Below are positions 1 through 41,967 of a DNA stretch of 64,000 bases, piece by piece (within the stretch, counting starts at the first letter, position 1; every line of letters begins with the position of its first letter). The stretch is from assembly GCA_027622375.1 (NCBI GenBank), contig JAQCAB010000006.1:27514-91513 (forward strand). Direction: 5' to 3'. Source of the DNA: Bacteroidota bacterium (GTDB taxonomy: Bacteria; Bacteroidota; Ignavibacteria; UBA10030; UBA8401). The position numbers were made by a program, and so were the translations under genes. The notes under the pieces are model-generated. The model had not been told where the DNA came from. It was given only the letters and a program-made list of their open reading frames with translations, and searched no databases.

Positions 1-594
1 CACAGAAAGTTTTGCAAGTGAATCAAATGGCCTTTCATCAACAAAAGAACTTATTGGAAAAAATTTATAATTATCTTTTTTAGGAACTCCATGTGGATGT
101 AAAATTGGATATGCTTCCCAAATTATTTTTGAAGAATCTAAAGATTTATCATCTTCTGGGATAAAAGGACCGATTGCATGAATAACATTATGCGACATAT
201 TTGAATATTGCAGAAATTGAGATTGTTCTAAATCGGTAGATTCATTTGATCGAACTTTTGGAAAAAAATAATCTACTCCGATTGCTTTTGCACCATAGCT
301 TTCCATAATTGCAAACAAAGCGCCAAATTGATCACGCGGAATTGGATAAAGCAGTTCGTTTAATGTTGCCTCATCAATTGTAACTACAACTAAATTATTT
401 GTATGAGGTCGAGTTCCACGGACATTTAAATATGTGTCATAAGCTTTTTTATCGAGAGTTGAAAAAATATTCGATCCAAAAAGTTTATCCATCAAACTCG
501 TATGGAAAAGTGAAAAAGTAATCCCAACGCATAAAACAGGTATACTTACACCAACAAAAACTTTATAAAGTTTCTTCTTTGTGCGAGAAGTCAT
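1..594 (-). CDS. CHASE2-domain membrane protein, C-terminal part cut off by the window edge
   Basis: Not in ORF track. Own reverse-strand translation is open from ATG at 594 to position 1: MTSRTKKKLYKVFVGVSIPVLCVGITFSLFHTSLMDKLFGSNIFSTLDKKAYDTYLNVRGTRPHTNNLVVVTIDEATLNELLYPIPRDQFGALFAIMESYGAKAIGVDYFFPKV; matches the CHASE2 pattern (YD..R, IDE.SL, P.PR..., GAKAIG.D..F). Confidence 0.8.
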   Translation of the reverse strand, partial: MTSRTKKKLYKVFVGVSIPVLCVGITFSLFHTSLMDKLFGSNIFSTLDKKAYDTYLNVRGTRPHTNNLVVVTIDEATLNELLYPIPRDQFGALFAIMESYGAKAIGVDYFFPKVRSNESTDLEQSQFLQYSNMSHNVIHAIGPFIPEDDKSLDSSKIIWEAYPILHPHGVPKKDNYKFFPISSFVDERPFDSLAKLSV

Positions 595-623
595 CCAGTT
601 ATTTTTGAATAATATCTAATTTT

Positions 624-3119
624 TTATATTTCTTTCCAATATAGAAAATCTTTTATATTACTCAATGCAGTTGGATCAATTCCACGACGACCACCAAAAA
701 TAAACTTATTTTCACCCTTTCGGATTGATTTTTCTTTTGATTTCACATCCTTTTTAGCATTTACATCTTGAAGTGCTGATGACAACAAATTTCTTAATTC
801 ACCTTTATCAATTGATTGAGTTTTTTCTGCAGCACGAGTTTGTCCCATTTCTGCTACAATATTATCAATTCCTAATTTTGTATATGCTTCTTCTTTTGAT
901 GGAAATTTTTTAATAGCAGCTGAAAAAGATTCTACAGTTGCAGTTGGCTCGCCACCTAAAAATTGCAGCAAACCAAAATTAATATTTATTCCACCATCTT
1001 TAACATCAACTTTTAAAGCTGAAGCGTAACTATTATAAGCATTTGCAGAATCACCTTTTAGCAAAAATACATTTCCACGATTATTTAAAGTTGCGGCCGA
1101 AGAATATTTTTTTAGAACTTCAATAGCTTCATCAAATCTTCCAACATTTGATAAAAGTTGAGATGCTTTTTGTGCTCCCTTTTCAGTACCTTGATTTTTA
1201 TATGAGGCAACTACAGTTTCAACTTGTTCTTTATAATTTGCAACAACACTATTTATATCTTCATTTAGTAAAATTGCAATTTTTTCAGCTGCTGGTGGCT
1301 CACTAAGTTTTACATTTGCTGCCAAGTTTGATGGAGGAAATTGCTCCCACGCTTTTCGAACATCTATTAAATCCAATTTTCCTTGAGAATCTACAGTTTT
1401 GTGATATCCTTCTGCGCCCATCGACCAAGCTTGAGTAAATGGTTTTCCAATAATTGTAGTTTCAAGTGGAATCCAAACTGTATTATCTTTTACAACATAT
1501 TCTTTTTCATTCAAACTAATTCTCGATGCATTTTTAGCATTTACTCCGGTATCAAACATTATAAAAACATGATCCGAAGTGCCAATTAAAAATGTTCTAA
1601 TACCAATATTTTCTAAACATGAAGCAAGTAAAACAGAACTATCATCGCAATCTCCAGCTTTATTTGCAAGAGTCTCACGTGGAAATTGAATATCATCCAA
1701 TACATCTCCTTCAGCAACTCTCCATGGATCAACTACATAATTAATTTGAAATGCACGAATAGCATCCCAAATTGCCATTGCGTTAATTAAATTTCGCGGA
1801 GCATCTGGATAAGATGTTTTATCTGGTTTTAAATTACCAACAACATATCTGGAAAAATTTTTAACTGCTTCATCATTTGGAGTTATAAAAGCACCAATTG
1901 CATTTGGTCTTGACCATGTTACACTATTGCGGCTATAAATTGTAACAGTTTTTGTGATGCTTCTATTTTTTTCTTGTCCATCTACAACAAAAGTTATTTT
2001 ACCTTGAACTTGAGCAACTGTATTATCTTTTACTTCCTGCAAAGCGATATTATCCAAAGTTGCTTTTACAGGGATTTCTTTTTTCTCTTTTGCTTTTAAT
2101 AATGGAATAATTTCTTCAGATGCAAGTTGCATATATTTTGGAACCATCACAGATACTTTTATATTTTTTATATCAGTTTTGCCAGTATTCTCAATTGTCA
2201 TATTCCCAATCGGATTATACGCATAATAATTAAATTGAGCTGGAAATAAATTTTCAACTTTAAATTCTGATATTTCCAATTCTGGTGGAATGTATGCTGA
2301 TATTTTTTTTGCACCTTTTGTATCTGTTGATACATCAAGTCTGCTACCGGTAAATCCAACAACTTTATATTCTGGGAAAGAAACAAATTGCGAACGCAAA
2401 TCATCAATCGATCCTTGAATTGTAACATCAAGCATTGCAATATCACCTTCGATGTAGCGAACTTTTAATTTTTTAATCATTGCAATTTTTGTTGGAAGTC
2501 TTTTTTCTTCTTCTAATAATGATGCATCATTAACACCAAGTAATGCGAGTTGAATTACAATTGGCTTATCTTTCATTTCTTTTAATTTCTTATCGATCTT
2601 TGCAACAACATCTGATGCTAATTTTTTTCCTAATTCCTCAAGAGATTTTGATGCTGATCTAGATTTCGATTGATCTTTTGCTTTTGCATCAGCACTTGTT
2701 ACTGCAAGAATTTCTCCAACATCAGTTAAAATAATTTTTACAGAACCATCGGCCATATAGTCAGCATATTTAGTTCCGTAAACTTCAATATCTCCACCAA
2801 AATTAGTTTGAACTCCACCAGAAATAATTATTTCTGCGCCAAATCTTTTACCGAGCGCTTTTGCTTTTGCAGGATTCGTTAAATCAAGTGAAAGGTCACG
2901 TGCTAATACTTCTCCAAACTGCGCTTTATCAACTAGACGATATCCTTTTTCCAAAAGTGCTTCTTCAATTTTGCTGACAACTTTTTTTGCAGAAGTAGAT
3001 TGATCATCTATTTTTTCGTCAACAACAACCATCACTCTTGGCAAATCAATATCCTGTGAAGTTACGATTGTAAAGATGCTTAAAACTAAAACAATTGTTT
3101 TTGTAATTATATTTTTCAT
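624..3119 (-). CDS. Secreted protein: N-terminal CsgG/FlgO-like domain, central transglutaminase-like domain, C-terminal TPRs
   Basis: Signal peptide ...IVTSQ; GYRLVDKAQFGEVLARDL..LGKRFGAEIIISG resembles CsgG-like domains; AGDCDDSSVLLASCLENIGIRTFLIGTSDHVFIMF..WIPLETT resembles the transglutaminase core; TPR-like repeats near the C-terminus. Confidence 0.7.
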   Translation of the reverse strand: MKNIITKTIVLVLSIFTIVTSQDIDLPRVMVVVDEKIDDQSTSAKKVVSKIEEALLEKGYRLVDKAQFGEVLARDLSLDLTNPAKAKALGKRFGAEIIISGGVQTNFGGDIEVYGTKYADYMADGSVKIILTDVGEILAVTSADAKAKDQSKSRSASKSLEELGKKLASDVVAKIDKKLKEMKDKPIVIQLALLGVNDASLLEEEKRLPTKIAMIKKLKVRYIEGDIAMLDVTIQGSIDDLRSQFVSFPEYKVVGFTGSRLDVSTDTKGAKKISAYIPPELEISEFKVENLFPAQFNYYAYNPIGNMTIENTGKTDIKNIKVSVMVPKYMQLASEEIIPLLKAKEKKEIPVKATLDNIALQEVKDNTVAQVQGKITFVVDGQEKNRSITKTVTIYSRNSVTWSRPNAIGAFITPNDEAVKNFSRYVVGNLKPDKTSYPDAPRNLINAMAIWDAIRAFQINYVVDPWRVAEGDVLDDIQFPRETLANKAGDCDDSSVLLASCLENIGIRTFLIGTSDHVFIMFDTGVNAKNASRISLNEKEYVVKDNTVWIPLETTIIGKPFTQAWSMGAEGYHKTVDSQGKLDLIDVRKAWEQFPPSNLAANVKLSEPPAAEKIAILLNEDINSVVANYKEQVETVVASYKNQGTEKGAQKASQLLSNVGRFDEAIEVLKKYSSAATLNNRGNVFLLKGDSANAYNSYASALKVDVKDGGININFGLLQFLGGEPTATVESFSAAIKKFPSKEEAYTKLGIDNIVAEMGQTRAAEKTQSIDKGELRNLLSSALQDVNAKKDVKSKEKSIRKGENKFIFGGRRGIDPTALSNIKDFLYWKEI

Positions 3120-3132
3120 AGCTAACTCCTTT

Positions 3133-3894
3133 TTATTTTATTTTTGATAAAATTGTTTTCACTTGTTGGACTTTTTCTTTTGCTGGTAAATAATTTGGTG
3201 ATTTTGAAGATGCATCTTGATAAAGCTTTAATGCTTTTTGATAACCTGCTTTTGCTTTTACTAAATCTCCTGATTTTTCTTTATACCGAGCTTCATCTTC
3301 TAAAGCAATTGCTTCAGAAAAAGAAACATATGCTTCAAAGTTTCCTTCTAATTCTGCATCAAGATAATCTTCTTCTTCTGAAGTAAGCTTTACATTTAAA
3401 TCTTTTGCAACACTTTTAGCAATTGATCTAAGTAAAGTTACAAATTGTCTCACATCTCCAGTTTCTTCTTCGGCATTAATTGTTTCTCCAGTTTCAGTTC
3501 TAACAATTCTGACATCAATTCTAATTTCATCTTCATCAGATTTTGTGAAAGAACCAAACATCATATTTTTTGCGCCGAGCAATTTTCCAATTTTTTGTGT
3601 AGATGATTCATCGAGGATTCCAGTTTCCTGTAAATTCATTTCGTCAATTATACTTTTGATTCTATTTCGTTCAACTAATTTTAAACCTTTAATTTTAGAC
3701 ATTTCTGAAGACATCATATCTGCAAGACCTTTACTTAGCGGTTGCATTTTTTCGCGGTCAAGAAGACAATTATTTTCAAAATTTAAAATTGCCATTGTCT
3801 GTTGTTGTTTGTCTTGCGAGATTGCAAAATTAAATATTATCAAAAAACTGAAAAATAATTTTTTATAATTTTTGGACATTAGTTTTTCCTTCAT
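3133..3894 (-). CDS. CsgG-like domain + TPR secreted protein
   Basis: Signal peptide ...NFAISQ; LADMMSSEMSKIKGLKLVERNRIKSIIDEMNLQETGILDESSTQKIGKLLGAKNMMFGSF is CsgG/FlgO-like; TPR-like C-terminus. Confidence 0.7.
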   Translation of the reverse strand: MKEKLMSKNYKKLFFSFLIIFNFAISQDKQQQTMAILNFENNCLLDREKMQPLSKGLADMMSSEMSKIKGLKLVERNRIKSIIDEMNLQETGILDESSTQKIGKLLGAKNMMFGSFTKSDEDEIRIDVRIVRTETGETINAEEETGDVRQFVTLLRSIAKSVAKDLNVKLTSEEEDYLDAELEGNFEAYVSFSEAIALEDEARYKEKSGDLVKAKAGYQKALKLYQDASSKSPNYLPAKEKVQQVKTILSKIK

Positions 3895-3902
3895 AAATAT
3901 TT

Positions 3903-5168
3903 TTATAATGAAACCTTTAGACCAAAACCAAAATCAACTCCTGATGCGTTATACTCAGTTCCTTCAACCACTAATTTACCATTTCCTAATTTAGTTGCCA
4001 ACATTATAACAATCCAATCAGTAACGGGATAAGTTATATCAACTCCATAATTTAGCATATTAACATTGCCTGTTTTCATTATTTTATCACCAAGTGGAAA
4101 TTGATCTTCTGTGTGGAATTTATATTCCAAACTTCCATTTATTGTAAAAATTTGCGCCGGACTCCAACTAATATTGTATTGGAATTCAAGTTGAGTAGCG
4201 CTCGGATATTCTGTTGGAGTATTTAAAGAATCAGAACTAAAAATTTTATTTTTTAATCGAAATCTAGCTTTTAACAATGCAAGATTATTTGTTGGACCAA
4301 ACTTCTGTGAAAATAAAAATAATCCATTAATACGAGCTCCGGTTTGAAAAGTATTTTTTTCATTAATTTGATCGGGCAAATAATATGAAAATGTTACATC
4401 ACTTGAGAAACGTTGATCTTTATTTACAGATATATAATTAACTCCACTATTAAAAGAAAATTCTTCACCAGGGTTGTAATCAACTTTTGGTTTTGCAGCA
4501 CTTGTGTCCAAAATATCAATTTGAACCGGCTCGAAAGTACTTTTAAAAGTTCCTGATGCGCCAAAACCGAGAACGATTCTGCGTGAATATGAATAAGCAT
4601 AAGTCAATCCTAAATTTGTATTTACACCTTGACCGGTTGATGGAACGCGAAATCCTAAACCAGCTTGCGAAATCATTTTTGAAACTTTGAATTGATCGGT
4701 TGATAATTTTTTAATTCCAGTTGGTAAATTTATTCCTCCATTAATCCAAAGTTTATCATTAGGCGCTACATACGAAAGTGAAACTCGAGTATCCGACATT
4801 CCTTCCATCTCATTTGCAGGTTGATCCAAAGAAGTTGTTTTTCCAGAAGTATCTACTACAACTTCAGGCGCTTTACTTTTTGATGTGACAAGAGAACTAT
4901 TAATAGTTATCAATAATCTATTTGTAATTGGAATTGAAGTTGAAATTGGAGTTGAAACTTGAGTCACATCAGTATTATTATCACTTGAATCAGTCAACTT
5001 CCAAGTTTGCGAAACAAAAGACAAATTTAATCCACGAACGTTTTTAAAAAGTAAACGCTCGTCATATTTTGGACCTTTTAATTGACCAATCAAATTATTC
5101 ATATTAATTATGCATAAAGTTAAAATAATATAGAACGATTTGAATTTGTTAGTTGTATTCAGCATCAC
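3903..5168 (-). CDS. Predicted outer-membrane beta-barrel (transporter-like) protein
   Basis: N-terminal signal sequence, alternating amphipathic strands, C-terminal GVDFGFGLKVSL. Confidence 0.55.
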   Translation of the reverse strand: MMLNTTNKFKSFYIILTLCIINMNNLIGQLKGPKYDERLLFKNVRGLNLSFVSQTWKLTDSSDNNTDVTQVSTPISTSIPITNRLLITINSSLVTSKSKAPEVVVDTSGKTTSLDQPANEMEGMSDTRVSLSYVAPNDKLWINGGINLPTGIKKLSTDQFKVSKMISQAGLGFRVPSTGQGVNTNLGLTYAYSYSRRIVLGFGASGTFKSTFEPVQIDILDTSAAKPKVDYNPGEEFSFNSGVNYISVNKDQRFSSDVTFSYYLPDQINEKNTFQTGARINGLFLFSQKFGPTNNLALLKARFRLKNKIFSSDSLNTPTEYPSATQLEFQYNISWSPAQIFTINGSLEYKFHTEDQFPLGDKIMKTGNVNMLNYGVDITYPVTDWIVIMLATKLGNGKLVVEGTEYNASGVDFGFGLKVSL

Positions 5169-5170
5169 AT

Positions 5171-8100
5171 TTATTTGATTAATAACATTTTCTTAGATGA
5201 TAAATAATTGCCTGATTTTATTTGATAAAAATAGATTCCAGCACTTACACTTTCACCAACTTCATTTTTGCCATCCCAAAAAGTTTTATAATTACCAATT
5301 TTTTGTTCTTGACTTACTAATACTTTTACTTTCTGTCCGAGTGAATTGTATATCACAAGATTTACATGTCCGCTGTATGAAAGTGAATATTGAATTGAAG
5401 TTTGTGGATTAAAAGGATTTGGATAATTCTGTAACAAATGATAATCTGGCGGATTTAATGGAACTCCATCAGAATTATTTATTATAAAACCTTCTCGACC
5501 GACAAGTAATTTAAAATTTCTTGTTAATTCATTTTTTCGGAATTTAAAAATGTAACCTGAATTTTTAATATCGAATAATCGTTCTTCAGTTTTATCTAAA
5601 AGTAAAATTTTAAATCCTTCTGGCAAATCTTTTTCGATCTCGCAAATTATTTTTGATTCGAGCAAATTAAAGTTTGTTGAAACTTCAAAATTCCAAAATG
5701 CTCCTTCATCAGCTACTGGTCTAATATCAGAAGAATAAATTCCATTATTCTCATTCCACTCATTTTTACGAAAAGCAAGTTGAATATAATTTGATGGCGA
5801 AGCTGGTGGTTCAGAAAAATCAAATTCATCTTTTGCAACTTTTGCATTCGGATTCATTCCAATAAAATTATCTTCATCAGTTGCAATAAGTGAAAGCGCA
5901 CGCAATCTTACACTCCAATTTGAATTTGTAATTTTTGTGCCGGGATCATTTTTTGGTGTGCCAACTTTTGCAGGATTTATTAAAACTTTTAAAATGTTAT
6001 TAGTTAAATTTTTTACCCAATATCCTTCAAAAGGTAACATGTTTGTTGTAACAGCTTCATATCTAGTTTTATTCCAACGCCATAATTTATTTTCAATTCC
6101 TGAATCAATTTTTGAATTTTCCCAACTTACTGTGTATGGAAAAGGATTGCCAATCAAATTATAACCGGGATATAAAATTAATTCATGATAACCTGTTGTT
6201 GATGATAATGTTGCATTGCCAAAATTAATTGACTTCTCTCCTTTTGTGATTAGCCAATAACCATCTCCTCTATTAAAGTTTGAAAATATCGGATTTGGAA
6301 ATTCTAAAAAAGTTTGTTTATCCGCTGCCCATTTAAACAATCTCCAATTTACAGGATTTATTGTTCCTAAATCTTTTAATACTTGAGAAATATTAAATGA
6401 ATTTAAATCATACGGAATTGTAAAAAGCATATATCTTTCATTCAAAGTTTGTTGTGGCATCTTAACTTCAAAATTTTGTTTTGATGAAACCATATTCAAC
6501 AAAAATGTCAAATTAGATTTTGCAAAAATTCCTCCCAACATTTCTCCAGTATTTGCTACTTTATAATTTGGTGTTTCACTCCAGATATCCATATCACCCA
6601 ATAAAATTATATTTCCCTTCCCAATTTGAGAGACACCAATTAAAGTTGGACGAAGTGAATCAGGTTGTTTTGTAGAATTGTTAATTGTAAAAGTTGTAGA
6701 TTCACCACGTAAAAAGATACTTGCTTTCCCTTCCTGAACTTTTATATTTGTGCTTCCAAAAAATATTAATGTGTCAACATTTTTTAAAAAAGGATGAGCT
6801 TTATTTATAAATTGCCTTGCCAAAATATTCCGTGGATTTCCTTGATAAGCTAAAGTAGAATCAACAATATAAGTATCTGTTTGAATTGAAAGACCTGTAC
6901 TATCTTTTAAATCTGCCTTCCAACGAAAATCATTTAAAATCTCATTCAAATAAATATTTCCTTGATTTGTTGAAGCATCAGCCAACATCACAATTGTACC
7001 ACCTCGTGAAACAAATTTTTGAATTGCTAAAATCTCACTTTGACTATATTTTTTTGCTGGAGGTGGAAGAATAATTAATTCAAATCCTGTTGTATCAAAA
7101 GCAGTTTGATTATAAGTAACTTGCATTCCACTTTCGGTTAAAGTTTTTATCAATCCCGAAAAATGCTTTGGAACTGTAATTGATATATCTGGTAGATTTA
7201 TTCCGTGTAAAGAATCAATTAATATTTTTTTTGCAACAACTGCTCTTGCAATTCCTTTTCCATTTAAAACATATTTCACATTTTTAAAATCAGGATCATT
7301 TGTAGTGAAATAAATATTTGTTGCTAAAACACCTGCAGTTAATGGTTGAAATTTTATAGATTGAGAACTTTCAGCTCGTGGTTGAATTGTTATTGTTTGA
7401 TTTTTTTTAGCATAAAAATCTTTTGCATTATCTGCTGAATCAAGTCTAATTATCAAATCTTGCGAACCAACGTTTTTAAATGGAAGCAAAATTGTCTTGG
7501 CTTCACCAATTGACGCAGAACCAATATCAATAGTTGATTTTTGAATTAATACTGCAGGTTCGCTAGAATAAAATTCAGTATAGGCACCACTTTTTGTTGC
7601 TAAATAAAATTGGAATTTGTTTTTTTCAGATGAAATGATTCTATCAATTTCTCCAAGAGTTGAATCAGCACTTGTTTGAATCCAGCTTGTTCCAAAATTC
7701 TTACTGAAAAAAGTTTTGTTTGAACTCGACACATATGCATAATTTTTATTTTTTTTATCGATTACTACCGCGCTTGCATTTAAATTTGTTGAAGTCCAAT
7801 TTCCGTAATTTGTAGTTACATACATCAACTCTTTTTTAGATAAATCATGCCTTGTAATATAAACTAAAGAATCAACATTTGAGGAAGTATGAATTCTATA
7901 AGTGTAAACAGGATTACCAAATGAATTTGTTGTAGGTAGATTGCCAGTAATATCAATCCAAGTTGTTCCCAAATCATTACTCATCCAAACACTTTGATTT
8001 GCTGCAAAAATAGTTTTGTCGAAGTAAGAATGAAATCCTAAGGCTGTTCTTGTTGACGAACGAATAAAATTAGCTGGTAAATTTAATTTTTGCCAACTTG

Positions 8101-9568
8101 CTCCACCATTAATAGAATATTGAGATTCTGTTCTTGGACTATGAACAATTATATTGTTTGGATTTTTATTTGAGATTGAAAGGCTGCCTCTAAAATTTTG
8201 ATTTACATATTCATTATTGACAGCCGGTATAATTAATCTATTCCAAGATTCACCTCCATTAATTGATTTATAAACATCTAATCTGTTCATCGCATAAATT
8301 ATAGATGCATTTGTTAGATCAATTTGAAAATTTTTAACAAACGGATCTTCCAAGCCAGAATTCATTGTTCGCCAAGAAGTTCCAAAATCAATCGAGCGAT
8401 ACACTCCTCCACCTTGAGATGATATATATAATGTATCTCCATTTTTTGATGGTGCAAATTTTGTAACATCAAGAAAATTCAATCCAACATTTTTACGTTC
8501 CCAGGAATTCCCTTTTGTTGAAGAGTAATAAACACCATCAGAGGTTCCAACAAAAATTGTTGCTGGCAAATTTTGAGGAATATAAAAACATTGAGTATAA
8601 ATTGTCTGCTTAAATTTTGATTCCCATGATTGAAAAGTTCCTTGTAAAATTGAAGATCGATATAATCCACCTCTACTTGGATACACAAAATTGCTATTTA
8701 ATGTTGGAAGAGTTGCCATGTATAAATTATTTGGCCCACCGGGATCCAGTGAATTATCTGAAACCATTGAAAGTTGTTTTACAATACTATCTCTATTTTC
8801 TAATCCTAAATTTAATGATATCCAACTTCCACCACGTGATAAGGAAAAATAAGCACCATCATCAGTCCCCATAAGCACAGAGTTTGAAAAATTTGCATCT
8901 TGCGAAATAACAATTGTATTTACTCTTTTTTTAGGATGACTAACTTCCAATGTGCTAAAATTACTATTAATATTTTGCCAATTACTACCTCTATCGGTTG
9001 ATTGAAAAATTCCAGCACCATTTGTTCCAATAAAAATTAAAGAATCTTTTACAGGATCAATTGCAATAGATAAAATTAGCAATGCTTCAGATTGCAATCC
9101 ATTATTTACAAGTTCCCAATTTACAAATCCATCAAGCGAACGTGCAACACCATTAAATCCTGTACCATTTAATCCAGCAAAAATTATATTCGGATTTTTT
9201 TTAGAAATTGCAATCGTTTGTACATTACCAATCAGAGTAGTATTTGACCAATTTTTTCCACCATCAGCACTTTTATACAAGCCATTATTAGTACCTGCAT
9301 AAGCTATTTGTTGATTTGCGGGATTGAAGGCAAAACAATTTACAGTAACATTTGTAAGATTTGTCGCTAGCCAATTATTTGCTTGTGTTGTGGAATAAAA
9401 AATCCCTTTTTCTTTTACACCAATTAAAATCATCTCGGCACTTGTTGTGCCACCAATTGCTGTAATATCGCCACCAGTTGGTCCAACAAAATTTTTTGTT
9501 CCAAATTGAGAAATCGCAATTGAGGAAAACAAAAATAAAATTAAAATATTTAAAAAAACTTTTCTCAT
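5171..9568 (-). CDS. Giant BNR/sortilin-like repeat protein with T9SS C-terminal sorting domain
   Basis: 1465 aa; repeated 'YKSADGGKNWSN', 'YRSIDFGTSWRTMNSGL', 'YKSINGGESWNRL' motifs; ASH/choice-of-anchor-like module (DIGSASIGEAKTILLPFKNVGSQDL); DUF4350/GATase-like segment (ELIILPPPAKKYSQSEILAIQKFVSRGGTIVMLAD); C-terminal LLQNYPNPFNPQTSIQYSL...GIYFYQIKSG. Confidence 0.8.
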   Translation of the reverse strand: MRKVFLNILILFLFSSIAISQFGTKNFVGPTGGDITAIGGTTSAEMILIGVKEKGIFYSTTQANNWLATNLTNVTVNCFAFNPANQQIAYAGTNNGLYKSADGGKNWSNTTLIGNVQTIAISKKNPNIIFAGLNGTGFNGVARSLDGFVNWELVNNGLQSEALLILSIAIDPVKDSLIFIGTNGAGIFQSTDRGSNWQNINSNFSTLEVSHPKKRVNTIVISQDANFSNSVLMGTDDGAYFSLSRGGSWISLNLGLENRDSIVKQLSMVSDNSLDPGGPNNLYMATLPTLNSNFVYPSRGGLYRSSILQGTFQSWESKFKQTIYTQCFYIPQNLPATIFVGTSDGVYYSSTKGNSWERKNVGLNFLDVTKFAPSKNGDTLYISSQGGGVYRSIDFGTSWRTMNSGLEDPFVKNFQIDLTNASIIYAMNRLDVYKSINGGESWNRLIIPAVNNEYVNQNFRGSLSISNKNPNNIIVHSPRTESQYSINGGASWQKLNLPANFIRSSTRTALGFHSYFDKTIFAANQSVWMSNDLGTTWIDITGNLPTTNSFGNPVYTYRIHTSSNVDSLVYITRHDLSKKELMYVTTNYGNWTSTNLNASAVVIDKKNKNYAYVSSSNKTFFSKNFGTSWIQTSADSTLGEIDRIISSEKNKFQFYLATKSGAYTEFYSSEPAVLIQKSTIDIGSASIGEAKTILLPFKNVGSQDLIIRLDSADNAKDFYAKKNQTITIQPRAESSQSIKFQPLTAGVLATNIYFTTNDPDFKNVKYVLNGKGIARAVVAKKILIDSLHGINLPDISITVPKHFSGLIKTLTESGMQVTYNQTAFDTTGFELIILPPPAKKYSQSEILAIQKFVSRGGTIVMLADASTNQGNIYLNEILNDFRWKADLKDSTGLSIQTDTYIVDSTLAYQGNPRNILARQFINKAHPFLKNVDTLIFFGSTNIKVQEGKASIFLRGESTTFTINNSTKQPDSLRPTLIGVSQIGKGNIILLGDMDIWSETPNYKVANTGEMLGGIFAKSNLTFLLNMVSSKQNFEVKMPQQTLNERYMLFTIPYDLNSFNISQVLKDLGTINPVNWRLFKWAADKQTFLEFPNPIFSNFNRGDGYWLITKGEKSINFGNATLSSTTGYHELILYPGYNLIGNPFPYTVSWENSKIDSGIENKLWRWNKTRYEAVTTNMLPFEGYWVKNLTNNILKVLINPAKVGTPKNDPGTKITNSNWSVRLRALSLIATDEDNFIGMNPNAKVAKDEFDFSEPPASPSNYIQLAFRKNEWNENNGIYSSDIRPVADEGAFWNFEVSTNFNLLESKIICEIEKDLPEGFKILLLDKTEERLFDIKNSGYIFKFRKNELTRNFKLLVGREGFIINNSDGVPLNPPDYHLLQNYPNPFNPQTSIQYSLSYSGHVNLVIYNSLGQKVKVLVSQEQKIGNYKTFWDGKNEVGESVSAGIYFYQIKSGNYLSSKKMLLIK

Positions 9569-10929
9569 TACATTGGTGGTTTTGGAGGAGCTGGTAATGG
9601 ACTTGTTAAAATTGATGGTGGACCTTGTGATGAGCCGGGAGTTGTTGTAAATCCACCAGAAGCATTTACTTGCGAAGTATTTGCTCTATCTGTAACATTA
9701 TTAATTATATCTTTTGTTGCTGCGCTACTTGGTGGAGGAGGTGGAGTTGTTGTACTTACTCCAGAGCCACGTCCAGTTGAACGAGTTCCAGCGGAAGAAG
9801 AAGTTGTAGTTGAAATTATATTTGATATCTGTTTTGCAGATGATAAATTACTATTTGCTTGTGAAAATTTTGGATCAGCTTGAACAGCTGCTGAATAAGC
9901 GGTTATTGCTTGGTTATACATTCCTTTATCTTCAAAATCAATTCCTTGTGAATATTGTAAAAACGCAAACATATTTTCCGTTGGGATTGTAAGAATTGCT
10001 TCTCTTTCAGAATCAGAAATTTTAATATTTAATTCATCAATAATTTTAAATACTAATTCTTTTTGGAGTCTGAAAAATTCAGTTGTTTTCCCTGAAATAT
10101 CAATTGAACCGACTAAACTACCAGTTCTTGTTTGTGCAATAATTGCATCAATTCTAACTTGGTCATTTGATAAATCGAAATAAGATCCTTTAACTAATTT
10201 TGCAGCGCCAAGTAATTTACCAACTCGAGGTGCAGTTGCATCATCAACTAAACCAGTTTCGCCAAAATTCATCTCTTCAACTAATTTTTGTAATCTTACA
10301 CGTTCAACAACTTTTAAAGCTTTTACTTTTGAAAGATCTGTGATTGTCATCTCAGCTAATCCTTTTTGTAAAGGATCCAATTCTTTTTTTCCACTTTTAT
10401 TTTCAAAATTTAATACAGCAATTGTGTTAAGTGGGATTTTTTGGACATCAAGCATCGATTCTTCGAGCAAAGCTTTTGTGGCTTCAATTTCCATTTGACT
10501 TTTATAAAGTATCTTCATTCTGGCTTCAACATGTTCTCGATATTCTCCAAAAACTGTAAGCTTGTTATATCTTTGATAAAATTGAATTGCTTTTGGATAT
10601 TCAATCAATGCTTCAAATGTTGAAGCTAAATAATAAATATTTTGGTCATCTTCCGGATCAACTTTGAAAACGTTTTGAAAATATGGCAAAGCATCTGCAT
10701 AATATTTTTTATTATAGAGTGCAATCCCCATAAATTTTATCAAGTGTATATCACCAGAATTTTTTGATAATCCTTCTCTAACTTCCCCAATCACTTCATC
10801 ATTTTTGCCAGCATCAAGTTTCTGTAAAATTAAATCATAAGTAGTTGGTGCACAGCTTAATAACATTAAACTGAGAACTATAAAAAAATGTAATTTTATA
10901 TTTAATTTATTGGACATATTGCGCTTCAT
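9568..10929 (-). CDS. Lipoprotein with N-terminal TPRs, CsgG-like domain and Pro-rich tail
   Basis: Lipobox MLLSCAPTT; TPR region; LAEMTITDLSKVKALKVVERVRLQKLVEEMNFGETGLVDDATAPRVGKLLGAAKLVKGSYF; tail TTTPPPPPSS...SPLPAPPKPPM. Confidence 0.7.
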   Translation of the reverse strand: MKRNMSNKLNIKLHFFIVLSLMLLSCAPTTYDLILQKLDAGKNDEVIGEVREGLSKNSGDIHLIKFMGIALYNKKYYADALPYFQNVFKVDPEDDQNIYYLASTFEALIEYPKAIQFYQRYNKLTVFGEYREHVEARMKILYKSQMEIEATKALLEESMLDVQKIPLNTIAVLNFENKSGKKELDPLQKGLAEMTITDLSKVKALKVVERVRLQKLVEEMNFGETGLVDDATAPRVGKLLGAAKLVKGSYFDLSNDQVRIDAIIAQTRTGSLVGSIDISGKTTEFFRLQKELVFKIIDELNIKISDSEREAILTIPTENMFAFLQYSQGIDFEDKGMYNQAITAYSAAVQADPKFSQANSNLSSAKQISNIISTTTSSSAGTRSTGRGSGVSTTTPPPPPSSAATKDIINNVTDRANTSQVNASGGFTTTPGSSQGPPSILTSPLPAPPKPPM

Positions 10930-13101: not shown

Positions 13102-13842
13102 TTATATTTTTCCAAAATTATTTTCATTTATCCAGCCAATTTTTCCATCAGCTAATTTTAATTTATACCAACCATTTACTTTATCAAGCAAAATAAATTT
13201 TGTTCCTTCGTGCAACAAAAATGCATCTTCACTTTCAATTGATGGAGTGAGTTTGATATTTATTATTGATGTTGTGATAATTCCTTGGTTTTTATTTTCA
13301 GATTCATAATTGCCATATTCATAAATCAAAATAGAAAAAAAGGTTAAAAGAAATAATAAAACTCCAGAATAAAATAAATTTTTATTTATCACAGTAAATA
13401 AATAGATGCAAATAACAAGCGATAATCCAATTACAAACAAAATATAAAGAAATGTAAAACCAATTTTAGTTAAAATAAATTCATACCAATTATTAATCCA
13501 AATTTTTAAAAAGAATTCTGGAATAACATCTATTTTATCAATTTTTCGTGACTCTGCAAACCTTAAATTAAACAGAACATCTTCATCTGTGGGATTAATT
13601 TTTTTTGCCTTTTCAAAGTAATAAATTGATTTTCCTAAATTATTAATTTTAAAATAAGTTGTTCCAAGATTATAATACAACTCAAAACTTTGATTACCTG
13701 AATTTATAATAGTTTCGTATTCAACAATTGCATCGGAATATTTTTTATTGGAAAAATACTCATTCCCTTTTTGAAAATTTTTATTAAAATCTTGCGAGCT
13801 TAAATTTGAAAATATAAATAAGATAAAAATTATTTTTTTCAC
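13102..13842 (-). CDS. batE: BatE-like TPR + SH3 protein
   Basis: Signal peptide, TPRs, two TMs, C-terminal SH3-like GWYKLKLADGKIGWINENN; last gene of the bat cluster. Confidence 0.75.
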   Translation of the reverse strand: MKKIIFILFIFSNLSSQDFNKNFQKGNEYFSNKKYSDAIVEYETIINSGNQSFELYYNLGTTYFKINNLGKSIYYFEKAKKINPTDEDVLFNLRFAESRKIDKIDVIPEFFLKIWINNWYEFILTKIGFTFLYILFVIGLSLVICIYLFTVINKNLFYSGVLLFLLTFFSILIYEYGNYESENKNQGIITTSIINIKLTPSIESEDAFLLHEGTKFILLDKVNGWYKLKLADGKIGWINENNFGKI

Positions 13843-15662
13843 TTAATTTCTTCTTCCAATCTTGAAATAACTTTGATTGAGTCGTTAAACAATTCACCTT
13901 TTGTAGAATTAATTTCTGATTTTGGTGCAAACCTAAGAACCTCGCAACTTTGTTGAAGATTTACAAACAAATCAATTGTTGATTGATTAATTTTACGATT
14001 TGTTAGTTGCTTAATTATTTCATCAATGGTTAATTGTGAAAATGGAATATTAATTTTATCGCAAATATATTTTGTAAGTGTATATGAAAGTTCATCAACA
14101 AATTTAGAATCATCACCATTTTTTAATAAACTTTCAACAAGCTTTAATTTGTTTTTTGCAACCCGCGACGCTTTTTTAGATTTGTATCCGATAATATCAA
14201 ATTTTGCTTTTTCATTTTTAATTCTAAAAAATAAAATTCCACCTGCAATTAAAATTGGCAACAAATATAAAATTATTCTTAAAATGAAATTTGAATTTTC
14301 ATTATTTATGTTTGTAAATGCAAACGATTTTGTTTTAATAAATCTAACATCTTGATTTAAAAATTCAATTTCCTCTTTTGAAATTGAGCTAGTTTGCCCA
14401 GCTACAACTGCACCCTGATTAATTTTTAATTTAATTTCCTTGCTATTAAGTGTTACATAATTATTTGAACTCGGATTAAAATAACTCCATTCAATTTGCG
14501 GAATTTTTTTATTACCGGGATACTTAGGAATTACAAGCCACTCATAAGTTCGTGTCCCTGATACATATTTAGATTGGAGGTTTACATTATCATTTGTTTT
14601 TGGATCGTACAATTCAAATTCATTTGAAAGTTCAAGTTTTGGAGTTTCAATTAATTTTAAATTTCCTGTTCCTGAAATTTTCATTTTTAAAGTAATTGCT
14701 TCGTTAGTTTGAGTTTCAGTTTTTGATGTGGAAATATTCATTTCATATTTGCCAACTGCGCCTGAAAAACTTTTAGGAATATTATTTTGCGGCAAACTCA
14801 TCACATTAATTTTTACTGGCTGACTTTTTATTTGGATATTTTGAGTTTGTACTGAACTAAAAAAAGGATCATTGAAAATATCAAATGGATTATTTGATCT
14901 TCTTCTAGTTGGAACTTGAACTTGACAATTTATCTCAAATGGTTTTATTTCTAAACTTCCTGATTGCGTTGGAAAAAGTGCAATCCTTTTTAACTCGCCA
15001 ACTTGATACTGAATTCCATTTACAACTTCGTTTGTAAGTTGAACTTGTTGATTTTGCGGAATTTCTTCAACCCAAAATCCTTGTGTTGATGGAAATGCTT
15101 TTATCGAATAATTTGAAATCTTTAATCGAGTATAAATTTTGTATGTAACATTTATTTGTTCTCCAACGTAAACTTTTGAGCGATCAACAAATGCTTGCAA
15201 AAATAGATTTTCACTCGAAGTAATATTACTTTGTTGTTTTGGTTGACTTTGTGAACTTTTTAAAATATTTAATTCAATTGTGTTAGATGAATATTGTTTT
15301 CCACCGGCTTCAATTGTAGCAGAACCAATTATTATTTTTCCTTCTTTATTTGGTTGGATATCAAACGAAATTGAAAATGAGGATGAAACATTTCCATTAA
15401 TAAACTGCATACTTGTGGATTGATTTGGTCCACTTAAAATTGAAAAATTACTTAAATCTGGCTGACGGAAATTGCGAGCGCCACCAACACCTGCACCACT
15501 TAATGAAAAAGTTAAAGAAATTGGTTCGCCAATTTGTGGATTTGTATTATTTACAGATGCAGTAAAAGATTCATCTTGCGAGAGCAAGCAAGCAATAAAA
15601 ATAAAATTTGTAAAAATTACTTTTATAAAATTCATTAAATTCTTACCAATCTTTTTCAACAT
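13839..15662 (-). CDS. batD: BatD-like oxygen tolerance protein; start may be internal ATG at 15635
   Basis: FTASVNNTNPQIGEPISLTFSLSGAGVGGARNFRQPDLSNFSILSGPNQSTSMQFINGNVSSSFSI is typical of BatD; C-terminal TM; adjacent to batC. Confidence 0.85.
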   Translation of the reverse strand: MLKKIGKNLMNFIKVIFTNFIFIACLLSQDESFTASVNNTNPQIGEPISLTFSLSGAGVGGARNFRQPDLSNFSILSGPNQSTSMQFINGNVSSSFSISFDIQPNKEGKIIIGSATIEAGGKQYSSNTIELNILKSSQSQPKQQSNITSSENLFLQAFVDRSKVYVGEQINVTYKIYTRLKISNYSIKAFPSTQGFWVEEIPQNQQVQLTNEVVNGIQYQVGELKRIALFPTQSGSLEIKPFEINCQVQVPTRRRSNNPFDIFNDPFFSSVQTQNIQIKSQPVKINVMSLPQNNIPKSFSGAVGKYEMNISTSKTETQTNEAITLKMKISGTGNLKLIETPKLELSNEFELYDPKTNDNVNLQSKYVSGTRTYEWLVIPKYPGNKKIPQIEWSYFNPSSNNYVTLNSKEIKLKINQGAVVAGQTSSISKEEIEFLNQDVRFIKTKSFAFTNINNENSNFILRIILYLLPILIAGGILFFRIKNEKAKFDIIGYKSKKASRVAKNKLKLVESLLKNGDDSKFVDELSYTLTKYICDKINIPFSQLTIDEIIKQLTNRKINQSTIDLFVNLQQSCEVLRFAPKSEINSTKGELFNDSIKVISRLEEEIK

Positions 15663-16347
15663 TAAGTTTTATCAAAGCACGTTTTTTTAAGTTTTTTTGA
15701 ACATCCTTTTCGTTTTTATTTATTGCCTGTAATATCTGCTCGGCATTTTCTTTTGTAATTTTGGATTTTTGTTTTTGCGGTTCTTGTTTTTGCTCATCTT
15801 TACTTTGTTGCTGGTTTTTATTTTTTTGTTCCTCTTTATTTTGATCTTGTTTGTTTTGATCTTCTTTTTTTTCTTCCTTCTGATTTTCTTTTTTATTTTG
15901 ATTTTTATTACCAGATGAATCTTTTTGCAATTGCATTTGCTGTAATGCGTAACTTAAATTGTGGCGAGTATCCTCATCATTAGGATTTAATTTTAGAGAT
16001 TGTTTATAATTTTCAATTGCCTTTTCATAATTTTTATTATTTAACGCAATATTGCCAACATTATAATTTATTTTACTTTTGATTTCTTTATTCACCGTTT
16101 TTGTTAACGAGTTTAAATATTCCCTTTCGGCAAGCGAGTCTTTGTTTTGTTTATACAAAGAGTTTCCACGATTATAATAACCATAAACTTCATTTTTATT
16201 TTTTTCAATTCCTTTTAAATATTCAATTTCAGCTTCAGAATATTTTTCAGTATTGTACAATTCATTTCCGTTTTTAATTAATTTACGAAGTGATTGGGCT
16301 TCAATATCCATAGAAAAGAAAAAAATTATAAAAATTAAAATCTTCAT
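15643..16347 (-). CDS. batC: BatC-like TPR protein with Lys/Gln/Glu-rich region
   Basis: TPRs followed by NKNQNKKENQKEEKKEDQNKQDQNKEEQKNKNQQQSKDEQKQEPQ; located between batB and batD. Confidence 0.75.
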   Translation of the reverse strand: MKILIFIIFFFSMDIEAQSLRKLIKNGNELYNTEKYSEAEIEYLKGIEKNKNEVYGYYNRGNSLYKQNKDSLAEREYLNSLTKTVNKEIKSKINYNVGNIALNNKNYEKAIENYKQSLKLNPNDEDTRHNLSYALQQMQLQKDSSGNKNQNKKENQKEEKKEDQNKQDQNKEEQKNKNQQQSKDEQKQEPQKQKSKITKENAEQILQAINKNEKDVQKNLKKRALIKLNVEKDW

Positions 16348-17387
16348 TGATTATTATTCAACTTTTTTAAAATATTAAATTTGCTAAACCACTTTGATTT
16401 TTTATCGCTGATAAAAATTTCTAAAACCAATAAAAGAAATCCGGCAAAACAAAAATATTGATACTCAGTTTCAAATTCTGTAAATATTTTTTGACCAAAT
16501 TCTCTTTTTTGCAATTTGTTAATTTCATTAAAAATTTCATTTAAAGCATCAATATTCGTATTTGCATTTACATATTTACCACCACCATTTTTTGCAATTT
16601 CAATTAAACCAGCTTCATCTAATTTTGTTAAAACAATATTTCCATCTTTATCACGTTTATAATCTTCGCTTCCATATTGATTACGTACAGGAATCGGGGT
16701 GCCTGCGATTGTTCCAACACCAATTGTATAAATTATTACACCATTTTTATTTGCTTCTTCAGCGGCTTTTATTGCATCCCCTTCGGTTGATTCTCCATCT
16801 GTAATTATTATTAAAACTTTTGATGTTGGTTTATCTTGATAAAAACTTTTTGCAGATAAATTAATTGCATCTTCCAAAATAGAGCCGGGAGTTGGCATAG
16901 CTTCAACTCCCAAAACATCTATAAACATTTTTGCTGCATCGTAATCAATTGTTAATGGCAATTGTACAAAACTTGTACCCGAGAATGTAATTAATCCAAT
17001 TCTATCTCCACTTAATTTTTCGATTAATTTATTTATTTCAAATTTTGCTTTTTCAATTCTATTTGGTGCAACATCTTCAGCTGTCATCGAAAGCGAAACA
17101 TCAAGTGCTATAAAAATATCAAGTCCCTCTTGTTTAACTTCTTCAAGTTTTGTGCCTCGCAACGGATTTGCGATTGCAATTATCAAAAATAAAAGTGCAG
17201 TTACAGAAATAATAAATTTAAAATGTTTTTTCTTTCTACTTATTTCGGAAGTCAACCGATCCCACAAAGTTTCTGAGATTTTATTTTGTGATTTTTTAAT
17301 TTGATTCGCTACAATAAAATAAATAAAAAATAAAATCGGGAGCGAAATTAAAATCCACAAATAATCATAATTACCGAACTGCAACAT
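16344..17387 (-). CDS. batB: BatB-like VWA-domain membrane protein
   Basis: FIALDVSLSMTAEDVAPNRIEKAKFEI MIDAS motif; flanking TMs. Confidence 0.88.
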   Translation of the reverse strand: MLQFGNYDYLWILISLPILFFIYFIVANQIKKSQNKISETLWDRLTSEISRKKKHFKFIISVTALLFLIIAIANPLRGTKLEEVKQEGLDIFIALDVSLSMTAEDVAPNRIEKAKFEINKLIEKLSGDRIGLITFSGTSFVQLPLTIDYDAAKMFIDVLGVEAMPTPGSILEDAINLSAKSFYQDKPTSKVLIIITDGESTEGDAIKAAEEANKNGVIIYTIGVGTIAGTPIPVRNQYGSEDYKRDKDGNIVLTKLDEAGLIEIAKNGGGKYVNANTNIDALNEIFNEINKLQKREFGQKIFTEFETEYQYFCFAGFLLLVLEIFISDKKSKWFSKFNILKKLNNNQ

Positions 17388-18383
17388 TTATGGAATCCTC
17401 TTCAAATAAGTTTGCGAAATTGTTAATTCCAAAAAAAGAAAAACTAAACAAAGTGAAAGTGGAAAATAAAATAAATCTTTATGCCGTGTATAAGAACGAA
17501 CATTAATTTTAGTTTTTTCTAATTTATCAATTTCAGAATAAATATTTTTTAACTCTGAATATTTTGTTGCACGATAAAATTTTCCACCTGTTCTATTTGA
17601 AACTTGCCTCAAAGTTTTTTCATCAATTTCAACAGGCACCATTTGATATTGCTTTCCAAAAGGAGTTTCAATTGGATAAGGCGCAGTACCAAAAGTTCCC
17701 GTTGCAACTGTGTAAATTTTAATTCCGAACTGAAGCGCAATTTCTGCAGCAGTAAGTGGATCAATTTCACCACGATTATTTACACCATCGGTTAATAAAA
17801 TTATAACTTTACTTTTTGATTTACTTTCTTTTAAACGATTTATACTATTTGCAATTCCCAAACCAATTGCAGTTCCATCCTCAACAACTCCATGTTTAAT
17901 ATTTTGAATTGAGTTTTGTAAAATATTATAATCGATTGTTAATGGGCATTGTGTAAAACTTTCACCACTAAAAACAACAAGACCAATTCTATCGTTCATG
18001 CGTTGAGTTACAAACTGCTGTCCAACTTTTTTAGCAGCTTCAATTCTATTTGGTTTTAAATCTTCAGCCAACATACTTGCCGAAATATCAATTGCAAGAA
18101 TTATATCAATCCCTTCGGTTTTTACTACTTCACTTTTAATTTTGGATTGTGGACGAGCTAAAGCTAAAATTGCAAATAATATTACAAGAATTCGTAAAAT
18201 ATTTGGTAAATTTTTTATTTTTTCACGAAGTGTTAATGGAATTACTTCAAGATTTTTTAATGTTGGATAATCAATTGCAGTAACTTTATTTTTTTTGTAA
18301 AAGAAGAACCAATAAACTATAATTGGAACTACTAAAAGTAAAATTAAAAATAATGGATTTGCAAAATTATAATTTTCAAACAT
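17388..18383 (-). CDS. batA: BatA-like VWA-domain membrane protein
   Basis: ILAIDISASMLAEDLKPNRIEAAKKVGQQFV; flanking TMs; paralogous to batB. Confidence 0.88.
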   Translation of the reverse strand: MFENYNFANPLFLILLLVVPIIVYWFFFYKKNKVTAIDYPTLKNLEVIPLTLREKIKNLPNILRILVILFAILALARPQSKIKSEVVKTEGIDIILAIDISASMLAEDLKPNRIEAAKKVGQQFVTQRMNDRIGLVVFSGESFTQCPLTIDYNILQNSIQNIKHGVVEDGTAIGLGIANSINRLKESKSKSKVIILLTDGVNNRGEIDPLTAAEIALQFGIKIYTVATGTFGTAPYPIETPFGKQYQMVPVEIDEKTLRQVSNRTGGKFYRATKYSELKNIYSEIDKLEKTKINVRSYTRHKDLFYFPLSLCLVFLFLELTISQTYLKRIP

Positions 18384-19305
18384 TTTGTAATTCTGTTTTA
18401 TAAATAGGAGTTGTTTCTAATATAATTTTTTTTGCAATCGGGATTACTCTATCGCATATACTTTTTTCTGGAATAAATTTTGCAAACTTAACTAAATCAC
18501 TTTCCTCTAATATTTCTTTAATTGTAAGATGTAAATTGATTTCTATCGGATAATTTTTGAGTTCATTTAAGATTTCGGTTGTTGTTTGCTCAACAGCTAA
18601 AAATTTATACCGCATCTCAAAATACAATCTTAAACAATCACTGATTTTTGAATAAAACAATTTATATTTTCCTTCTAAAATTAAATTTCCATTTTCAATT
18701 TCTGCTAATTTTTGCAAAGCAATTACTTCGGGAGGTAAAATTATTTCTGGTTTTTCTTCAACTTTGGTTTGTTTTTTTCTATTTCGCAAAAAATAAATTA
18801 AATATGCAACGGATAATACCGCTATAATTATTAAACTAATTTCTGCAATATCACTCCACTTAATTGGCACTTCGAGCGGATTTTTGATTTCCCGAATTTT
18901 TGCAAGTGTATCAAGCGCAATTGGCAAAACCGATAAAATTAAAGTGTCCGATTCAGCAAAATATTTAATGCTATCATTCGGATTTGTATAACTGATTTTA
19001 AATGGAGGAATTTTTAGAGAATCTAAAGTAAAATTAATAAGTGTAAGTTTTTTACTTGTAATTATTTTTCCATCGCGAGTTGAGTTTTCAAGTTTTGACT
19101 CGCTTATAATTTCAAAATCTTTAGATGAGTTTTCAAGTTTTGGAAATTGAACATAATAATTTCCATTTATTTCTGCTTCCAATATTATTTTAAAAGGAGT
19201 TGCGAGTTTAATTTTTGAAGAATCAGTTTTAGCTCTTAAAATAACTTTTTGCGAAAATAAATTTACAGTCAAAAACAAAATCAAAATAAATATTTTTACA
19301 AACAT
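18376..19305 (-). CDS. BatD/DUF4381-like membrane protein of the bat cluster
   Basis: Signal peptide ...NLFSQ, beta-rich ectodomain, one TM, cytoplasmic helical C-terminus; located between DUF58 and batA. Confidence 0.55.
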   Translation of the reverse strand: MFVKIFILILFLTVNLFSQKVILRAKTDSSKIKLATPFKIILEAEINGNYYVQFPKLENSSKDFEIISESKLENSTRDGKIITSKKLTLINFTLDSLKIPPFKISYTNPNDSIKYFAESDTLILSVLPIALDTLAKIREIKNPLEVPIKWSDIAEISLIIIAVLSVAYLIYFLRNRKKQTKVEEKPEIILPPEVIALQKLAEIENGNLILEGKYKLFYSKISDCLRLYFEMRYKFLAVEQTTTEILNELKNYPIEINLHLTIKEILEESDLVKFAKFIPEKSICDRVIPIAKKIILETTPIYKTELQNV

Positions 19306-19308
19306 AAA

Positions 19309-20208
19309 TTAAATTGCCATTCTTTTTTCTCTTGCCTTAAAAAATTGTTGCAACGGCTTGTAATAACTTTCCCCGGTTTTGACAGTAATTACATCAACCT
19401 TATTTTTTTTAAAAATGTTATTTAATATTTCCTGATGTTTTAAAAATTGGCTTGCAAATTTTAATTGAAAATTTTTTTGAGATGTATCAACTAGTCTCAT
19501 TTGTCCGGTTTCAGAATCACGCAATTGTAGAAGACCAGCTTTTGGAATTGACTCTTCCAATTTATCTACAATACGAACTGCAATTACATCATGTTTATTT
19601 TTTGCAATTCTGAGTGGTTTTTCAAAATCGGTATCAATAAAATCGGAAAGAATAAAGAGAATTGTTTTCTTTTTAATCATCGCGCTCACATATTCCAAAA
19701 CTTTTGAAATATTTGTCCCCTTATTTTTTGGTTCAAAAGTCAAAAGTTCTCGCAAAATTCTAAAAATATGCGGCTTCCCTTTTTTAGGTAAAATTACCTT
19801 TTCGATTTCGTCTGAAAATAAAATCAATCCAACTTTATCATTATTTTTTATAGCAGAAAATCCCAAGGCACCACAAATTTCTGTTGCAAGTTCATTTTTA
19901 AATTGCAGATTTGTACCAAAATTGCTCGATTTACTTGCATCAACCAAAAGCAAAACCGAAAGCTCACGCTCTTCTTCAAAAATTTTTACAAAAAGTTTTT
20001 CAAACCTTTTGCTGTAATCAAATCTCGCGCTAACATTCCAATCAATATTCCTGATATCGTCACCATATTGATATTCTCGAACTTCCGAAAAACTCATTCC
20101 TCTCCCTTTAAAAACAGAATGATATTCTCCTGAAAATAATTGATTTACAAGTTTGCGAGTGTGGATTTCAACAAGCCTGATTTGTTTTAGTAATTCTTGT
20201 GGAGTCAT
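19309..20208 (-). CDS. DUF58 domain-containing protein
   Basis: GRGMSFSEVREYQYGDDIRNIDWNVSARF signature. Confidence 0.93.
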   Translation of the reverse strand: MTPQELLKQIRLVEIHTRKLVNQLFSGEYHSVFKGRGMSFSEVREYQYGDDIRNIDWNVSARFDYSKRFEKLFVKIFEEERELSVLLLVDASKSSNFGTNLQFKNELATEICGALGFSAIKNNDKVGLILFSDEIEKVILPKKGKPHIFRILRELLTFEPKNKGTNISKVLEYVSAMIKKKTILFILSDFIDTDFEKPLRIAKNKHDVIAVRIVDKLEESIPKAGLLQLRDSETGQMRLVDTSQKNFQLKFASQFLKHQEILNNIFKKNKVDVITVKTGESYYKPLQQFFKAREKRMAI

Positions 20209-20217
20209 TAAAAAATT

Positions 20218-41458: not shown

Positions 41459-41967
41459 AGAATATTTCAATTTCGGATATAAAAAATATTCCTCTTTTTA
41501 ATGGATTAACTGATTCACATTTGAACGACCTCATTAATATTATGGAACTTCGCAATATTGATGAAAATACAATTTTTATTAAAGAAGGCGACATCGGAAG
41601 TGAAATGTTTATTTTATTAAATGGAACAGTTGAAATAAGCAGATCATTAATCCTAAAAAAATCTGGAGAAGGTTTAAATAGAAGTGATAAATCATTTTTA
41701 CAACTTGATTCATCAACAAAACCTTTTTTTGGTGAAGTGGGATTATTTGACGAAAACAGTAAACGAAGTGCATCTGTAATGACTAAAAAAAATTCAGTTG
41801 TCGCCGTATTAAAAAAAGAATCTTTTTTTAATTTGATTGAATCGAATAATACAATTGGATATAAAATTTTATACAATCTTGTTAAAATTGTAAGTTCACG
41901 ATTGGATAAAACTTCGCAAGATGTTTTAAAACTTGCTACTGCTTTAAGCCTAGCGCTTGAACGATAA
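41455..41967 (+). CDS. Cyclic nucleotide-binding domain protein
   Basis: IPLFNGLTDSHLNDLINIMELRNIDENTIFIKEGDIGSEMFILLNGTVEI; FGEVGLFDENSKRSASVMT phosphate-binding cassette. Confidence 0.88.
   Translation: MKNISISDIKNIPLFNGLTDSHLNDLINIMELRNIDENTIFIKEGDIGSEMFILLNGTVEISRSLILKKSGEGLNRSDKSFLQLDSSTKPFFGEVGLFDENSKRSASVMTKKNSVVAVLKKESFFNLIESNNTIGYKILYNLVKIVSSRLDKTSQDVLKLATALSLALER

Follow-up and report, generated by a model that had tools for sequence, protein, structure and literature searches.

In the 64,000-nucleotide (nt) stretch of Bacteroidota bacterium contig JAQCAB010000006.1 analysed here (the window; G000:C32:27514-91513 in our numbering, part of the 1.73-Mb genome G000), six minus-strand genes form an operon that links envelope proteins to an adenylate cyclase with a CHASE2 domain. 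The operon probably specifies a trans-envelope sensory system, by which the state of the surface or outer membrane would be relayed to an inner-membrane enzyme making cyclic AMP (cAMP). The gene order is P0006 (lipoprotein), P0005 (propeller protein), P0004 (barrel), P0003, P0002 and P0001 (cyclase). Its most widely conserved unit is a pair, the transglutaminase-fold/tetratricopeptide repeat (TPR) protein P0002 and the CHASE2 receptor, of which the cytoplasmic output can be swapped.

An initial annotation, made from the letters of the window alone, had listed the six open reading frames (ORFs) with a 1-nt overlap followed by gaps of 2, 8, 13 and 29 nt; the ORF list gives the same positions and spacing, with the overlap at 9568 (Table 1). 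The operon is real and is completed by sequence outside the window: past position 1, the CHASE2 gene extends for another 1.6 kb, and the effector domain encoded there is a class III adenylate cyclase.

The core pair and its exchangeable outputs

We scanned 85,462 species genomes with a P0002 alignment that holds no CHASE2 information, and retrieved 80 loci. A CHASE2 gene is present in 28 of the 56 distant loci, i.e., those outside the family to which the window belongs (27 of the 45 distant loci of at least 8 kb). It lies on the same strand as the P0002 homologue in 27 of these 28 loci, and 21 feature a cyclase domain. The number expected by chance is about 0.02 CHASE2 genes per 20-kb locus, an estimate from the one to four genes per genome in this family and not a measured background of the distant phyla. 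The two genes occur together in Gemmatimonadota, Latescibacterota, KSB1, Neomarinimicrobiota, Fibrobacter, Treponema and others, and the pair persists in other phyla where orthologues of the barrel or the propeller are absent.

What is joined to CHASE2 differs between loci. In Fibrobacter (L122), it is a HisKA/HATPase kinase module, with genes for an NtrC-type regulator and a CsgG/PEGA protein beside it; L106 has HisKA/HATPase together with PAS; and in five loci from KSB1, Calditrichaeota and Ignavibacteria (L137, L138, L140, L142 and L154), a sigma-54 AAA+ domain takes that place. The opposite end of the system changes too, since the N-terminus of the transglutaminase protein in KSB1 locus L109 is a barrel of the PorV/PorQ family (116 bits; cut-off, 90) that replaces the CsgG-fold domain. 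Thus, the system varies at its outer-membrane end and in its cytoplasmic output, while the transglutaminase/TPR part and CHASE2 remain paired. The swapping of outputs alongside a constant transglutaminase partner points to signal transduction more than to export.

P0001, a predicted adenylate cyclase

The complete P0001 ORF (L003:13916-16108; 730 amino acids, aa) encodes a CHASE2 domain (Pfam, 1.2e-14), as called from the part at 1-594, followed by three to four transmembrane or hydrophobic helices and a class III cyclase domain; the best solved matches are adenylate cyclases. The catalytic residues are intact: D478 and D522 for metal binding, K518 and T592 of the ATP type, and N599 and R603 for the transition state. 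Going by its domains and by the residue rule for ATP-using class III cyclases, P0001 is classified as a CHASE2 adenylate cyclase, predicted to synthesise cAMP. A genome search turned up no other class III cyclase in the 1.73-Mb genome, where a CRP-like regulator with a C-terminus that reads as helix-turn-helix is also encoded. Elsewhere in the window (40301-41967), a gene for a potassium-channel/TrkA-type protein precedes one for a stand-alone protein with a cyclic nucleotide-binding domain and no obvious DNA-binding domain, possibly another cAMP target.

P0002, a candidate cysteine enzyme

The AlphaFold model of P0002 (predicted local distance difference test score, pLDDT, 78) comprises a CsgG/FlgT-like N-terminal domain, a small alpha/beta domain, an immunoglobulin (Ig)-like domain (residues 281-394), a transglutaminase-fold domain (405-600) and TPRs (611-750). 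The triad Cys491-His517-Glu553 is invariant in 22 orthologues, which makes P0002 a candidate transglutaminase-fold cysteine enzyme. His517, which is not in the search patterns, is conserved in 79 of 82 wider matches; Cys and Glu lie in motifs of the wider search, which by itself accounts for part of their conservation there. In the orthologues of L035 and L037, the GDCDD around the catalytic Cys reads ANCSG, by which the Cys is kept and the acidic residues are lost; the activity may have changed in that lineage.

The CsgG-fold domains

The initial annotation had called three proteins CsgG-like and related them to the curli export pore. For P0006 and P0003, Pfam matches over the cut-off confirm the fold (CsgG, 8e-10 and 1.8e-12, respectively). 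The N-terminus of P0002 has no Pfam CsgG match, and its assignment comes from an hhalign comparison with the profile of its CsgG-fold neighbour (E 1.3e-5, probability 81%) and from Foldseek, by which the closest solved folds are HpaA, FlgT, GNA1162 and PelC, in addition to TPR proteins. P0003, sharing 42-80% identity with its orthologues, also shows weak matches, all under the curated cut-offs, to LpoB (2e-4), FlgO (3e-3) and TolB (9e-4).

The comparison with the curli pore fared differently. Measured in residues from one matched motif to the next, the two intervals that we take to form the membrane hairpins in Escherichia coli CsgG are 30 and 45 long; their counterparts are 8 and 14 in both P0003 and P0006, whereas P0002 has 22 and 22. 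The count rests on these motif anchors, as hhalign yielded no confident global alignment of the CsgG-fold profiles with the single E. coli CsgG sequence. Sequence-only searches of the PDB with CsgG-fold and barrel profiles returned TPRs only or nothing useful. By inspection of the operon's neighbours, no csgA, csgB, csgE or csgF was recognised (the rest of the genome was not searched). Given the short hairpin intervals and the FlgT/GNA1162/PelC-type structural neighbours, a curli-like pore is unlikely, and we rejected that identity. The domains are rather periplasmic members of the CsgG superfamily, of the FlgT/GNA1162/PelC/LpoB type: the N-terminal domain of P0002 has the fold of these lipoproteins and P0003 and P0006 match Pfam CsgG, but in the operon the domains are fused to TPR, Ig-like and transglutaminase-fold domains.

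The predicted surface and outer-membrane side

P0006 has a lipobox (LLSC) of which Cys26 is invariant in the orthologues, N-terminal TPRs (TPR_2, 4e-8), a CsgG-fold domain at about residues 165-300 and a proline-rich C-terminus that is conserved among orthologues. In P0005, Pfam bears out the BNR propeller (VPS10/BNR) and the sorting tail of the type IX secretion system (T9SS) that had been read from the sequence, and adds ASH/HYDIN Ig-like and DUF4350-like domains. The tail is of type A (TIGR04183, 33.7 bits; cut-off, 23) and the T9SS component SprA is encoded in the same genome (838 bits), so P0005 already has its own export route. Its N-terminus is strongly variable among the orthologues of the family, and its gene is missing from L036 and L081 (both from one genome), where the remaining operon genes are kept; the giant protein therefore appears dispensable. 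The initial annotation had supposed that the CsgG/TPR proteins assemble around the barrel and this giant protein. The window contains a tandem pair of further T9SS-tail proteins at 44623-48509, one esterase-like and one zinc carboxypeptidase-like.

No Pfam or NCBIfam match was obtained for P0004. Its earlier call as a beta-barrel is supported by the AlphaFold model, a barrel (pLDDT 81.9; predicted template modelling score 0.74), and by Foldseek matches in the PDB to the outer-membrane channels OmpG, FadL/TodX, CymA and FapF (E 1e-9 to 1e-7). Exporters are also among its structural neighbours (BcsC, FapF and a polysaccharide channel). The C-terminal residue of the orthologues is mostly Phe.

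Conservation within the family

The six-gene set is conserved in relatives, in complete order in at least 10 genomes of one family (L037, L075, L077, L079, L082, L083, L084, L085, L092 and the window) and in partial order on incomplete contigs of several more members. In the related family f2, adjacency is limited to the T9SS-tail protein and P0002 orthologues, accompanied in L040 by a divergent cyclase. The genes of a group further removed (L095, L097 and L098) run cyclase, small CsgG-domain protein, P0002 orthologue. The genes for SdhC, SdhA and SdhB (succinate dehydrogenase/fumarate reductase) lie downstream of P0001 (L003:10552-13849), as they do downstream of the operon in most relatives, which may possibly link cAMP signalling with respiration.

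CHASE2 cyclases were found in all 22 family genomes searched, mostly two to four of them (range, one to four). G000 and its sister G474 (L075) have kept a single one, that of the operon, versus two to four in most relatives. Both genomes of this genus measure about 1.7 Mb, versus 2.9-4.5 Mb in other family members, which suggests genome reduction in the genus; both have retained the operon. At paralogous CHASE2 cyclase loci, the partners are FecR and a conserved 800-aa protein without a Pfam match (L160, L162 and L165; FecR in L160, 1.3e-13) or an SH3/M48 protein and LPP20 (L163 and L164). Dedicated envelope partners thus look common for CHASE2 cyclases in these relatives.

A model and its alternatives

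For the sensory system that we favour, we propose the location of the proteins, their physical contacts, the direction of signalling, the enzyme activity and the signal as follows. The T9SS-delivered propeller protein P0005 and the barrel P0004 would point towards the exterior or the outer membrane; P0006 and P0003, with their CsgG/FlgT fold and TPRs, and P0002 would be periplasmic, probably at the outer membrane. The state of these envelope proteins could be a bound ligand, an assembled or damaged complex, or a peptide that the transglutaminase-fold cysteine enzyme has cut. Inner-membrane P0001 would read that state with its periplasmic CHASE2 domain and then make cAMP, acting via a CRP-type regulator. 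In favour of the model are the complete six-gene order in at least 10 genomes, the co-oriented linkage of P0002 homologues with CHASE2 genes beyond the family, the swapping of outputs, the intact cyclase residues together with the encoded CRP-like regulator, the retention of this cyclase alone in the two small genomes, and the precedents from S. meliloti and Campylobacterota described below. In bacteria of the FCB (Fibrobacteres-Chlorobi-Bacteroidetes) group, the operon would offer a route from outer-membrane or surface state to cAMP.

More tentatively, the core pair may represent a phylum-spanning signalling module whose outer-membrane-associated transglutaminase-fold/TPR protein, with its CsgG-fold or PorV-type barrel N-terminus, serves CHASE2 receptors as their dedicated activator in the periplasm, perhaps by cutting a partner; the cyclase, kinase and sigma-54 outputs would be interchangeable. 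If true, the missing input side would be supplied for a large class of these receptors. What CHASE2 domains sense is largely unknown (PMC5192318), and a conserved periplasmic partner that accompanies CHASE2 receptors of the cyclase, kinase and sigma-54 activator kinds across many phyla is a concrete candidate for their input.

Several observations weigh against a sensory role for the operon. Half of the distant loci have no visible CHASE2 gene, though many of the contigs are short; the complete genome G463 lacks the locus and has paralogous CHASE2 cyclases only; and with SdhCAB following in most relatives, the transcription unit may mix functions. The distances of P0002 and P0001 correlate almost perfectly (r 0.96), but species descent confounds this correlation, for which reason we set it aside as evidence. 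Both the cyclase activity and the contact with outer-membrane proteins we infer from sequence and single-protein models.

Another explanation, which we consider unlikely, is an export or assembly complex in which the propeller is brought to the surface, or anchored there, by the barrel together with the CsgG-fold/TPR proteins, the cyclase reporting on assembly or merely being encoded alongside. The propeller, barrel and lipoprotein genes are tightly coupled in the family, the structural neighbours of the barrel include the exporters named above, and the fold of P0002 matches PelC and FlgT, which are ring-forming envelope proteins. Such a complex is difficult to reconcile with the separate T9SS route available to P0005, the loss of the propeller gene in L036/L081, the lack of CsgG hairpins and the core pair in phyla without barrel or propeller orthologues. 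Less probable still is an integrity module for outer membrane and peptidoglycan, where domains resembling LpoB, TolB and FlgO would make contact with peptidoglycan synthases or Tol-Pal and wall peptides would be remodelled by the transglutaminase-fold protein, cAMP serving as the stress output: the weak P0003 matches that would suggest it belong to a widely shared fold, and there is no penicillin-binding or Tol gene at the locus. That the genes are co-located without shared function, as SdhCAB downstream in many relatives might suggest, is very improbable in view of how the two core genes stay linked and co-oriented in many phyla while the output is swapped. Anti-phage defence, with a ProA-like Ig-transglutaminase region and a Pycsar-like cyclase, is hardly credible, for although NF058533 (ProA) and PADLOC PycC match (82 bits and 3e-24, respectively), the latter reflects general class III cyclase similarity, and, unlike a defence island, the locus occurs in nearly all family members and encodes exported proteins.

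Comparison with known systems

The ProA match covers the Ig-transglutaminase N-terminal region (residues 301-593 of P0002; some 300 of 1903 profile positions) and is far under the cut-off of 1500 bits; P0002 lacks the remaining 1600 residues. The similarity to ProA and Pycsar being at domain level only, we rejected these identities. A family member encodes a protein with a strong ProA match (G521:C67:16276-19746; 608 bits, under the cut-off), unlinked to the operon.

In Sinorhizobium meliloti, the CHASE2 cyclases CyaD1, CyaD2 and CyaK respond via the outer-membrane barrel NsrA, which they need for signal input (PMC13001267). That system, with Clr, resembles the operon in setting an outer-membrane barrel beside CHASE2 adenylate cyclases with a CRP-type output; it differs in that its description includes neither a CsgG-fold protein nor a transglutaminase/TPR or T9SS protein. 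In Campylobacterota, every adenylate cyclase has a CHASE2 domain, and the majority are encoded in clusters with phosphodiesterase, FecR and TPR genes (PMC9239204). Clustering with envelope and TPR proteins is thus shared, but the FecR and phosphodiesterase genes are not found in the six-gene operon, where none of the six proteins has a Pfam FecR match. The Burkholderia BiofilmReg operon encodes a response regulator, LysM-FecR, a CHASE2 histidine kinase and DUF4136 (PMC5192318); it likewise combines a CHASE2 receptor with periplasmic partners, and has a kinase output as in Fibrobacter L122, but the partner proteins are different and the output is two-component versus cyclase. The operon, therefore, shares the logic of known CHASE2-partner systems; what sets it apart is the absence of FecR and phosphodiesterase and a different, transglutaminase-fold partner family. 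In searches of the open-access literature, the gene set matched no named system, as first supposed: none of the accounts retrieved brings CHASE2, CsgG and adenylate cyclase together or presents the transglutaminase/TPR partner as a system.

Locus and genome context

Table 1. Genes of the six-gene operon, with positions in the window.
Protein	Position	Strand	Description
P0006	9568..10929	(-)	TPR/CsgG-fold lipoprotein
P0005	5171..9568	(-)	1465-aa secreted propeller/T9SS protein
P0004	3903..5168	(-)	Predicted outer-membrane beta-barrel, ~16 strands
P0003	3133..3894	(-)	Exported CsgG-fold domain with helical/TPR-like C-terminus
P0002	624..3119	(-)	831-aa periplasmic (predicted) CsgG-fold/Ig/transglutaminase/TPR protein
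P0001	1..594 in window	(-)	N-terminal 198 aa of the predicted 730-aa CHASE2 adenylate cyclase; gene end at G000:C32:25915

A scan for promoters and terminators gave results near those of shuffled sequence. Upstream of the first operon gene lie a transketolase gene and, directly upstream of the latter, a Bat-type operon (13102-21207) of the ordinary type, co-oriented with the six-gene operon and encoding TPR proteins, a BatD-like protein, two VWA membrane proteins, a DUF58-like protein and a MoxR ATPase.

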